DNA of 64,000 bases from NCBI RefSeq assembly GCF_014204985.1, contig NZ_JACHMP010000001.1, positions 3,100,001-3,164,000 of the forward strand, read 5' to 3'. Made by a program: the position numbers and the translations under genes. Below the pieces are notes generated by a model. It saw only the letters and a list, made by a program, of their open reading frames with translations, had not been told where the DNA came from and searched no databases. Below, piece by piece: positions 29,292-39,717 of the stretch; position 1 is the first letter of the stretch; each line of letters opens with the position of its first letter. This stretch comes from Streptosporangium becharense (GTDB taxonomy: Bacteria > Actinomycetota > Actinomycetes > Streptosporangiales > Streptosporangiaceae).

Positions 29292-29319
29292 CATGTTGCC
29301 GAAAGATTTCGTTGACATG
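29292..29319 (+). promoter_or_regulatory. 28-bp palindromic operator of the sugar locus
   Basis: Arms CATGT-N3-CGAAA (29292-29304) and TTTCG-N3-ACATG (29307-29319) are perfectly symmetrical apart from the N3 blocks. The right arm covers the -35 box TTGACA, so a bound protein would block the polymerase. The SorC-family regulator at the end of the locus is the natural candidate. Confidence 0.6.
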
Positions 29320-29340
29320 TACGCGCGGTGATCCTACCGT
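29312..29340 (+). promoter_or_regulatory. Promoter of the sugar locus, probably giving a leaderless mRNA
   Basis: Consensus TTGACA (29312-29317), 17-bp spacer, TACCGT (29335-29340). The start site expected 7 bp later falls on the ATG at 29348. Confidence 0.7.
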
Positions 29341-29347
29341 CATGGTT

Positions 29348-30361
29348 ATGTCTAGTCACTCGCGCATAGATATTCAAGAGCCGACCTTCGGCGCAGGTAT
29401 CTGGCACTTCGGGCGGTACGTGGACCGGTACGCGACCGACGGGTACGGCCCGCCGGTCAGCACGCTGGAGGCGATCGACCTGGCTGGGCAGGTGGGTGAG
29501 CTGTCGGTGGTGGACCTGACGTTCCCCTTCGACCCGCCGGACCTGCCGCTCGACGACGTGAAGACGGCGCTCAAGCGCAACGGCCTGCGAGCCATCGCGG
29601 TCACCCCGGAGATCTACACCAGGCGCTTCACCCGCGGTGCGTTCACCAACCCCGACCCCGAGGTGCGGCGGCAGGCCATCGAGCTCGTCTCCCGGGGCGC
29701 CGAGACGGCCCGCGAGCTCGGCTGCGACTACGTGAAGCTCTGGCCCGGCCAGGACGGGTGGGACTACCCCTTCCAGTCCGACCACTCCGAGCTGTGGCGC
29801 CTGTCCCTCGACGCGGTGCGCGAGCTGGCGACGAACTTCCCCGACCTGCGCTTCGCCATCGAGTACAAGCCGCGCGAGCCCCGCAACAGCATGGTCTTCT
29901 CCTCGGTGACCAAGACCCTGCTGGGCATCGAGGAGATCGGACTGCCCAACGTCGGCATCCTGCTCGACTTCGGCCACTCCCTGTACGGCGGCGAGTCGCC
30001 CGCGGACGCGGCGCGGCTGGCGATCTCCCGCGGGCGGCTGTTCGCCATCGACGTCAACGACAACTACCGGGGCTGGGACGACGACATGGTCGTCGGCTCG
30101 GTCCACCTCACCGAGACCTTCGAGTTCTTCCACGCGCTGCGCGACGCGGGCTGGGACGGCGTCTGGCAGCTCGACCAGTTCCCGTTCCGGGAGGACTCGG
30201 TCGAGGCCGCACGGGCGGGCATCCGCGTCATGAAGACCATCCACCGCGCACTCGGTCTGCTGGACCACGAGGCCCTGGCCGCCGCGCAGCGGGCCCAGGA
30301 CGCCCTGGCCGCCCAGCGCGTCGTCCAGCAGGCCCTGCTGAGCGCCCAGGCCGGGCAGTGA
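29348..30361 (+). CDS. Xylose isomerase-like TIM-barrel sugar isomerase (candidate D-apiose isomerase)
   Basis: 337-aa protein of the AP endonuclease 2/xylose isomerase-like superfamily. Likely metal ligands and catalytic residues lie in [25 protein letters not shown] and WQLDQFPF. It would convert an aldose to a ketose in the cytoplasm. The start is taken as the ATG at 29348 because the promoter places the transcript start there; the ATG at 29342 is in frame two codons earlier, and no Shine-Dalgarno is visible. The downstream split transketolase and FGGY kinase match the D-apiose pathway (ApsI, AplK, AptA/AptB), making ApsI the best guess. Another pentose or tetrose is possible. Confidence 0.8.
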
Positions 30362-30490
30362 CACCCCGGCGCGACGGCGGCGGCCCGCCCGCGTGCCGCC
30401 CCGAGGACCACTCCCGCGAGGACCGCCGCACGGATTCCGGCCGGGAGAAGCAGCGAAACCGCCACACCGAGTTCGAGGAATGGAAACGAC

Positions 30491-37444: not shown

Positions 37445-38482
37445 ATGTCCGTTCCCATCCTTGAGTCCATGCGTCGCCGCGGTGTCGGCCTCGCGCTCTC
37501 GCTCCTCGCCGGCACCTCGCTGCTGGCGGCGTGCGGAAGCACCGGCGCACCGGCGCAGAGCTCGCCCGGCGCGCAGGCGGTCTCCGCCAGCCCGACCGGC
37601 GGAGGCGGCGGCCAGGCGGGCGGGCTGATCGCCATCATCACCCCGTCCCACGACAACCCGTTCTTCAAGGCGGAGGCCGACTCCGCCAAGGCCAAGGCCG
37701 AGGAGCTGGGCTACGAGACGTCGGTGGCCTCCCACGACGACGACCCCAACAAGCAGAGCGAGCTGATCGACGCCGCCATCTCCCGGCAGGCCAAGGCGAT
37801 CGTCCTGGACAACGCCGGTGCCGACGCCTCGATCGGCCCGGTCCGCAAGGCCACCGAGGCCGGCGTGCCGGTCTTCCTGATCGACCGTGAGATCAACGCC
37901 ACCGGCGTCGCCAAGGCGCAGATCGTCTCCAACAACTCCCAGGGTGCCCAGCTGGCCGCCCAGTCGTTCGTGGAGGCGATGAAGGAGAAGGGCAACTACG
38001 TGGAGCTGGTCGGCAAGGAGTCCGACACCAACGCCAGCGTGCGGTCCAAGGGCTTCTCGGACGTGATCTCCCAGTACCCGGACCTGAAGCTCGTGGCCAA
38101 GGAGAGCGCCAACTGGGACCAGCAGGAGGCGTTCACCAAGATGGAGACCATCATCCAGAAGAACCGCGACATCCAGGGCGTGATCGCGGGCAACGACACC
38201 ATGGCGCTCGGCGCGGTGGCCGCGCTCAAGGCCGCCGGGATGCTCGACAAGGTGGTGGTCGTCGGCTTCGACGGCAGCCCCGACGCCATCGCCGCGATCA
38301 AGGCCGGTGACATGCACGCCACCGCCCTCCAGCCGGCCGCGCTGGCCGCGCAGAGCGCCGTCGAGCAGGCGGACGCGTTCATCAAGAACGGCTCCACCGG
38401 CAAGGAGGAGAAGCAGTCCATCGACTGCGAGCTGGTCACCAAGGAGAACGCCGACGAGTTCGGCGTCTTCGGCCGGAAGTGA
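37445..38482 (+). CDS. Sugar ABC transporter substrate-binding lipoprotein
   Basis: 345-aa periplasmic-binding-protein type I (RbsB-like) lipoprotein. Lipobox L-A-A-C with C30. A Gly/Ser/Ala linker is followed by two Rossmann-like lobes with [22 protein letters not shown] and [11 protein letters not shown], all typical of pentose/hexose binders. It captures the sugar outside the cell for the adjacent permease. The ATG at 37445 is chosen for its GGAGGTCGGAG; an in-frame GTG at 37415 lacks this. Confidence 0.95.
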
Positions 38483-38487
38483 CCGCG

Positions 38488-38516
38488 GTGCGGGGACGGG
38501 CCGTCCGTCCCCGCAC
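38488..38516 (+). terminator. Terminator after the sugar transporter genes
   Basis: Perfect 12-bp stem GTGCGGGGACGG/CCGTCCCCGCAC with a 5-nt loop, 5 bp past the binding-protein stop. Confidence 0.7.
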
Positions 38517-38718
38517 CCCGTCCCCGTACGGCCGGGTCCGGCCGCCCGTATGTCCGGGCTCGCCGGGCGCGGAAGGGATCCGAGCGGTACGCTGAGTCGT
38601 CGGCCGCGGGTGAGAAGGAATTCGGTCCTCCCCGCACGCCGCCACCGGCTCCGCGTCACCCCCCGTCGGGCGGATCGAAGACAGAGCCGGTTTCCACACG
38701 TCGAACAGGAGGCGGTGC

Positions 38719-39717
38719 ATGGTCGTCCCCGACATGGGGCGGATCCACGGCTCCGGCCGCGCCGTGGCCACAGACCATCTGCGCCTGCTGGCGCGCGTGG
38801 CCCGGATGTATCACGAGCAGGGCATGCGGCAGCCGGAGATCGCCGCGGCGCTCAGCATCTCGCAGCCGCGCGTCTCCCGCCTGCTCAAGGAGGCCATCAC
38901 CAGGGGCATCGTGCGCACCGTGGTCGTCCTCCCGGAAGGTGTGCACACCGAGCTCGAAGAGGACCTGCAACGACGGTACTCGCTGCGGGACGCCGTGGTG
39001 GTCGACGCCGACGGCGCCCAGGGCGACGTCATCCCGGCCCTGGCGTCCGCCGCGGCGGCCTACTTCGACACGACGTTCAAGGGCGGCGACGTCATCGGCA
39101 TCTCCTCCTGGAGCGAGACGCTGCTGGCCGCCGTCGACCGCATGCACCCCAAGAGCGTGCAGGTCGCCGACCGCGTCATGCAGGTCGTCGGCGGCGTCGG
39201 CAGCCCCGAGGCGCAGGTGCACGCCACCCGCCTCATCAGCCGCCTGGCCGACGTCACCCGGGCCAGGCCGGTCTTCGTCCCGTCGGCCGGCGTCGTGGGC
39301 ACCCCCGTGATCCGCGACGCCCTGCTCCAGGACGCGGCCGTCGTCGACGTCATGTCCCAGTGGCGCGAGCTGACCGTCGTGCTGGTCGGCATCGGCAGCC
39401 TGGAGCCCTCCCCCCTCCTGCTGCGCAGCGGCAACGCGGTCAGCCAGGCCGACCAGGAGGAGCTCCGCTCCCTGGGCGCCGTCGGCGACGTCTGCCTGCA
39501 TTTCTTCGACGCCGACGGCGACGTGGTCGACTCCGCCTTCGACCGGCGGGTCGTGGGGATAAGCGTCGACACCTTCCGTTCCGTGCAGCGCCGCGTCGCC
39601 GTCGCCGGCGGCCAGCGGAAGTACTCCGCCATCAAGGCCGCCCTCCGGGGCGGCTGGATCAACGTGCTGATCACCGACCTGGAGGTCGCCCGGCGCCTGC
39701 TCGCCGAGCCGATCTGA
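38719..39717 (+). CDS. SorC/DeoR-type sugar-responsive transcriptional regulator
   Basis: 332-aa regulator. The N-terminal helix-turn-helix (about residues 32-62: QPEIAAALSISQPRVSRLL) is followed by the SorC sugar-phosphate-binding domain with GDVIGISSWSETLL and VGIGSLEPS. Such proteins are effector-gated repressors or activators of the sugar locus they accompany. It has its own ribosome binding site (CAGGAGGCGG) and lies beyond the operon terminator, so it is transcribed separately. The 28-bp palindrome at 29292-29319 is the likely target. No copy of that site was seen before this gene. Confidence 0.9.
   Translation: MVVPDMGRIHGSGRAVATDHLRLLARVARMYHEQGMRQPEIAAALSISQPRVSRLLKEAITRGIVRTVVVLPEGVHTELEEDLQRRYSLRDAVVVDADGAQGDVIPALASAAAAYFDTTFKGGDVIGISSWSETLLAAVDRMHPKSVQVADRVMQVVGGVGSPEAQVHATRLISRLADVTRARPVFVPSAGVVGTPVIRDALLQDAAVVDVMSQWRELTVVLVGIGSLEPSPLLLRSGNAVSQADQEELRSLGAVGDVCLHFFDADGDVVDSAFDRRVVGISVDTFRSVQRRVAVAGGQRKYSAIKAALRGGWINVLITDLEVARRLLAEPI

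Follow-up and report, generated by a model that had tools for sequence, protein, structure and literature searches.

A probable locus for import and non-oxidative catabolism of D-apiose in Streptosporangium becharense

Introduction

D-Apiose is a branched plant cell-wall sugar with a catabolic pathway known from Proteobacteria, and the reaction scheme of its non-oxidative route was reportedly set out by Carter et al. in 2018. The present analysis concerns a nine-gene locus (29348-39717, plus strand) in a stretch of 64,000 nt from the Streptosporangium becharense genome (7.8 Mb in two contigs), hereafter the window, to which all positions of the locus refer. Homology, co-conservation, and gene context indicate that the locus very probably (approximately 0.88) imports and catabolizes free D-apiose by the non-oxidative route, with substrate, reactions, and regulation deduced from these comparisons. 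It is a well-supported additional case of a pathway already known in other bacteria rather than a new type of system, and it brings a route for a plant cell-wall sugar into actinobacteria in the form of a compact operon that can be tested and whose relatives are linked to apiosidase.

The tested strains carrying such a cluster (three Escherichia coli, E. fergusonii, and P. carotovorum WPP14) grow on D-apiose, and the available sections of the same account name aplK, aptA, and aptB in E. coli SE15, which they do not list among the growth-tested strains (PMC13001218). They also include apsI in the WPP14 cluster, describe Escherichia as lacking apsI with two putative oxidoreductases in its place, and predict the pathway in 98 genera (PMC13001218). 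Carter et al. (2018) is the reference given for the Agrobacterium radiobacter and Xanthobacter enzymes in the accessible part of PMC6302742. The literature matches for the apiose pathway or transporter and Actinobacteria included, by title, none on actinobacterial apiose catabolism, although publication elsewhere is possible, and the matches listed for apulose included, by title, none about apulose.

Gene content and comparison with described systems

The locus comprised the following genes, where TktN and TktC denote the transketolase N- and C-terminal subunits, ABC an ATP-binding cassette, and SBP the sugar-binding protein:

29348-30361, plus strand: apsI-like D-apiose isomerase, a xylose isomerase-like TIM barrel (PF01261; alternative start 29342)
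30491-31372, plus strand: aptA-like TktN (PF00456; 45% identity to E. coli SE15 aptA)
31369-32322, plus strand: aptB-like TktC (PF02779/PF02780; 36% to E. coli SE15 aptB)
32315-33949, plus strand: FGGY kinase of a glycerol-kinase-like branch, putative D-apulose kinase (PF00370/PF02782; 38% to E. coli SE15 aplK)
33946-34620, plus strand: DUF2291 protein with a predicted N-terminal helix and a domain matching the OB-fold structure TM0957 (PF10054; best match of the model 2f4i)
34617-36164, plus strand: RbsA/XylG-type sugar ABC ATPase with two ABC domains and a GTG start (PF00005 twice; NCBIfam below cut-off)
36161-37282, plus strand: RbsC-type sugar ABC permease (PF02653; RbsC model below cut-off)
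37415-38482, plus strand: SBP with a lipobox-like LLAAC motif (PF13407; 196/283 residues identical to 5ibq)
38719-39717, plus strand: SorC/DeoR-type sugar-binding transcriptional regulator (PF04198)

In the proposed scheme, the lipoprotein SBP, the ribose-type ABC importer, and the DUF2291 protein would bring in D-apiose, which ApsI would convert to D-apulose and the FGGY kinase would phosphorylate to D-apulose 4-phosphate. AptAB would move a two-carbon unit to glyceraldehyde 3-phosphate, yielding xylulose 5-phosphate and dihydroxyacetone phosphate, and the SorC-type protein would control expression via a sugar or sugar-phosphate effector.

Family matches bore out the nine plus-strand genes and the families assigned to them in an earlier sequence-only reading, which had also placed the isomerase start at 29292 and counted six overlapping junctions (five of 4 bp and one of 8 bp). 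Translation from 29292 runs into stops, and five junctions overlap: TktN/TktC, kinase/DUF2291, DUF2291/ATPase, and ATPase/permease by 4 bp and TktC/kinase by 8 bp, with gaps of 129 bp between isomerase and TktN, 132 bp between permease and SBP, and 236 bp between SBP and regulator. Of the two possible isomerase starts (ATG 29342 and ATG 29348), 29348 is the most likely as this ATG is common to the window and the eight loci with an isomerase at least 80% identical. The SBP gene has alternative in-frame ATGs at 37445 and 37469, and the nearest solved chains to the regulator include a sorbitol operon regulator, a deoxyribonucleoside regulator, and LsrR.

One close counterpart was the Pectobacterium/E. 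coli-type non-oxidative pathway. Strong ApsI matches were present in four of the 295 genomes from the order of Pantoea, and longer stretches from three of these were compared (loci L138, L139, and L140). Two enterobacterial loci (L139 and L140) encode ApsI (63-64% identity) beside relatives of the E. coli SE15 aplK (44-45%), aptA (79%), and aptB (71-72%) together with an importer, DUF2291, and SorC, i.e., the same nine families as the window. The SE15 stretch contains eight of the nine (FGGY kinase, SBP, DUF2291, ATPase, permease, SorC-type regulator, aptA, and aptB) and, in the absence of ApsI, two short-chain dehydrogenases/reductases (SDRs). Gene order and strand layout in this type differ from the window.

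A second counterpart was the oiaX locus of the Rhizobium etli plasmid p42f (oxidative D-apiose/apionate route), where the genes for an SBP, DUF2291, ATPase, and permease lie side by side as in the window. Unlike the window, its annotated neighbors are OiaX, a four-carbon acid sugar kinase, and DhaK/DhaL, and the stretch has no transketolase or ApsI-like gene in its incomplete annotation. The third was the ribose locus of T. maritima (presumably TM0952-TM0960 in gene order), which shares the DUF2291 fold TM0957 (2f4i) and whose SBP ranks second, behind the R. etli protein, among solved relatives of the window SBP; this SBP differs in having F at the position of window residue W234 and was solved with ribose.

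Homology and co-conservation supporting a D-apiose pathway

The best solved relative of the isomerase was 3ktc (474 bits, 205/323 aligned residues identical, 63%), which we take to be the Pectobacterium enzyme now named ApsI, and the next was a xylose isomerase with 90 bits. Identity to the enterobacterial copies was 62-64%. An alignment of 84 ApsI sequences had 93 positions conserved at 99% or more, including putative metal-binding and lysine residues whose roles we assume by reference to xylose isomerase. Homology thus suggests that the ApsI component of the non-oxidative D-apiose pathway is present, and likewise the two-subunit AptA/AptB component. In a 33-row transketolase N tree, which carried long-branch warnings, AptA and the ApsI-linked copies were placed apart from the fused transketolase of the host and three other split ones (support 87/81); other transketolases are encoded elsewhere in the host genome.

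Gene context was counted in the best 80 of 377 related stretches. The kinase was present in 76, TktN in 74, TktC in 73, SorC in 58, the ATPase and permease in 45 each, the SBP in 44, and DUF2291 in 42, with some absences being edge effects since 15 of the 80 loci span at most 20 kb. All three ABC genes occurred in 44 loci. As in the window, TktN, TktC, and FGGY kinase genes co-localized with ApsI in 71 loci in many different orders, and the association is therefore beyond chance; the variety of orders points to a functional link more than to recent shared ancestry alone.

Related loci also connect ApsI to apiose release. Searches by tblastn with four Pfam-confirmed Apiosidase proteins gave matches inside 19 of the 80 loci, 18 of which extended over 400 residues (only 52 in L032) and one of which was only 30% identical (L071), and a Pfam Apiosidase match was found somewhere in the genome for 14 of 26 chosen ApsI loci with none for the other 12. 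In L061, the apiosidase reading frame begins 14 bases after that of the isomerase and is followed by an alpha-L-rhamnosidase gene. A Streptomyces plasmid carries apsI, transketolase, FGGY, and SorC genes flanked by pectinesterase, GH28, beta-L-arabinofuranosidase, and GH95 genes.

The importer offered a further link. The SBP model (predicted local distance difference test, pLDDT, 87.6) had 4ry0 as its nearest fold and the SBP shared 196 of 283 aligned residues (69%) with 5ibq, both entries being the same R. etli protein; the ligand in 5ibq is reportedly alpha-D-apiose. The R. etli p42f gene with a translation identical to the displayed 4ry0 stretch adjoins the DUF2291, ATPase, and permease genes, and four genes separate it from oiaX (annotated as 3-oxo-isoapionate-4-phosphate decarboxylase). 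Together with the two enterobacterial loci, the apiosidase matches, and the pectin-related context in Streptomyces, this R. etli relationship supports the assignment to D-apiose.

In two Nonomuraea loci (L017 and L018), an apiosidase gene comes directly after an apsI-like gene of 73-74% identity that is oriented away from the transketolase genes, and N. guangzhouensis (L018) has a second ApsI locus (L009).

Counterevidence and alternative functions

Several results weigh against the D-apiose assignment. The curated NCBIfam cut-offs were reached by none of the isomerase, transketolase subunits, kinase, and SBP. The host genome had no match to the apiosidase family PF13204 in a search that was positive in two of 14 control genomes; the host probably relies on other organisms or on a different enzyme family to release the apiose it uses. 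The locus counts lean to near relatives because the 80 loci were the closest of the 377. ApsI-like genes are not always in this context, as L138 (ApsI 62%) lacked aplK/aptA/aptB-type genes, importer, DUF2291, and SorC in its stretch and the ApsI-like genes of the Pantoea loci L006 and L084 had no transketolase and kinase genes within theirs. Distribution was also patchy: strong ApsI matches (E ≤1e-100) were limited to 11 of the 200 family genomes, the host being one of them. Three of the 11 reach no more than 51-52% identity, and the 10 other genomes listed from the same genus had none. The locus is thus an accessory trait. The remaining points concern the importer, transketolase, and kinase and are considered with the alternatives that they favor.

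The first alternative is that the importer takes up D-ribose and that the isomerase, kinase, and transketolase act on ribose or some other common pentose. The best NCBIfam models for the importer were RbsB for the SBP, RbsC for the permease, and XylG and RbsA for the ATPase, all below cut-off; 4ry0 is titled ribose transporter solute binding protein RHE_PF00037 from R. etli, the literature on 5IBQ, in the part available, calls it a probable ribose ABC protein, and the T. maritima SBP solved with ribose is 41% identical. Against this, a search confined to the nine genes showed no ribokinase family member or RbsD among them, the gene for the 69% identical R. etli SBP lies near oiaX, and ApsI is linked to apiosidase in related loci, making an ordinary pentose improbable as the substrate. 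Residue W234 of the SBP was present in at least 90% of 30 aligned rows and in R. etli, and is put forward as no more than a candidate marker. The E. coli SE15 SBP was only 44% identical to that of the window and lacked W234, and the E. coli growth result therefore does not vouch for the ligand of the window SBP.

The SE15 SBP (L089 32009-32944) and the R. etli type differ at conserved positions, W234 among them, and the SE15 protein may thus bind a different ligand.

Slightly less probable still is that the locus acts on some other branched or rare sugar, or on a related polyol, that enters as an apulose-like ketose. Clusters with two SDRs, another ABC set, and no ApsI occur in Deinococcus, Rhizobium, and Agrobacterium, two SDRs likewise stand in for ApsI in E. 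coli, and three copies from such SDR-type clusters fell within the AptA-containing group of the TktN tree. The existence of ApsI-less clusters indicates that the kinase/transketolase module is not bound to a single entry step. The nine window genes nevertheless include ApsI and no SDR, and both the strong conservation across the ApsI alignment and the apiosidase linkage favor D-apiose over another sugar.

The SDR-type clusters (L109, L111, L119, and L120, with L119 assigned by annotation only) resemble the window in having a split transketolase, FGGY kinase, SorC, and sugar ABC importer but differ in that two SDRs replace ApsI and the importer is more distant. Neither ApsI nor DUF2291 was found by tblastn in L109, L111, and L120. 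The two SDRs have relatives in the apiose cluster of E. coli SE15, and these clusters perhaps represent a second, oxidoreductive entry route.

Two trees of the kinase were constructed, with and without a xylulokinase outgroup, and neither recovered the expected clade of the window kinase with E. coli AplK apart from the glycerol kinases. In the rooted tree, AplK and the glycerol kinases formed one weak group (80/81), with AplK beside three alphaproteobacterial ApsI-linked kinases and the glycerol kinases beside ApsI-linked L071 and L079, and the window kinase lay outside it in an 11-row group (98/99) that was entirely actinobacterial except for Deinococcus. Phylogeny thus did not settle AplK identity, which rests on context. 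That the kinase is a glycerol or tetritol kinase and the genes form a mixed polyol locus is scarcely credible, as the best NCBIfam match to GlpK (412 bits vs. a cut-off of 590) and the lack of a single clade with AplK are set against a separate glycerol-kinase-like gene elsewhere in the host that groups with E. coli GlpK and against the overlap of the window kinase gene with the aptB and DUF2291 genes. The trees fit, without proving, repeated recruitment of glycerol-kinase-like enzymes into ApsI loci.

The kinases of L071 and L079 (both from metagenome-assembled genomes, one proteobacterial and one myxococcal) cluster with glycerol kinases (100/99) and not with other ApsI-linked kinases, a possible separate recruitment. 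The 3' end of the window kinase gene (33785-33916) contains a 54-bp tandem repeat with a 27-bp sub-unit that encodes a repetitive C-terminal tail; this repeat was absent from all eight relatives compared, and L027 has a different repetitive tail.

DUF2291 and the importer

The DUF2291 model (pLDDT 88.5) matched the T. maritima OB-fold protein TM0957 (2f4i), and Foldseek returned nothing except TM0957 chains below E 0.001. DUF2291 was present in 41 of the 44 ApsI loci holding all three ABC genes, with a weak match in a 42nd (L084). Its gene directly precedes the ATPase gene in the window and adjoins the importer in E. coli SE15, Enterobacterales, and Rhizobium. The family was rare in the phylum (four of 296 actinobacterial genomes, host included), in each case beside a related sugar ABC ATPase gene. 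Two of these four genomes contained ApsI, the host and that of L134, which has all nine families in yet another gene order. The other two stretches (12-13 kb each) had an importer without catabolic genes (L135) or with distant transketolase matches only (L136), indicating that DUF2291 tracks the importer rather than the pathway.

There is about an even chance that DUF2291 is a dedicated additional component, anchored in the membrane on the outside of the cell, of one subfamily of ribose-type (CUT2) importers and is required for the uptake of D-apiose and some other pentoses. It would be unusual for an SBP-dependent importer to have an OB-fold protein as its fourth extracytoplasmic component, and the role is directly testable as DUF2291 accompanies apiose-type importers across phyla. 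A literature search on the term DUF2291 found nothing.

Gene order and distribution

The gene order and the DUF2291 partner had been proposed to mark a distinct actinobacterial version of the pathway. The exact nine-gene order occurred in eight of the 80 loci, all actinobacterial, with the first eight genes so ordered in six more, and may be an actinobacterial specialty. The DUF2291 part of the proposal did not stand as E. coli SE15, Enterobacterales, and Rhizobium have DUF2291 beside the same importer type, and an actinobacterial version defined by DUF2291 or SorC was ruled out with both being present in E. coli SE15 and Enterobacterales. Within the family, genome G028 carries the nine genes in the window order.

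Promoter-like element and regulation

Comparison of the upstream regions revealed one candidate element:

29312-29340, plus strand: promoter-like element with TTGACA (29312-29317), a 17-nt spacer, and TACCGT (29335-29340)

TTGACA was found in all nine isomerase upstream regions (the window and the eight loci with an isomerase at least 80% identical), and the second hexamer (TAnnnT, which we take to be the actinobacterial -10 pattern) was clear by eye in eight. The isomerase mRNA may be leaderless since the -10-like hexamer ends 7 nt before ATG 29348. A generic scan of 28900-40000 gave no sigma-70 promoter site and two terminator-like sites against 2.3 expected, and a search for a SorC operator in the isomerase upstream alignment showed conservation of the promoter-like core alone.

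GC-rich stem-loops occur at 37270-37430 between the permease and SBP genes and are perhaps an mRNA-stability element, with weak RNA structure before the SBP gene (z -2.21; four of 200 shuffles folded equally well). In the rhizobial plasmid loci L007, L111, L119, and L120, ribB (3,4-dihydroxy-2-butanone-4-phosphate synthase) is annotated near the split transketolase/FGGY clusters.

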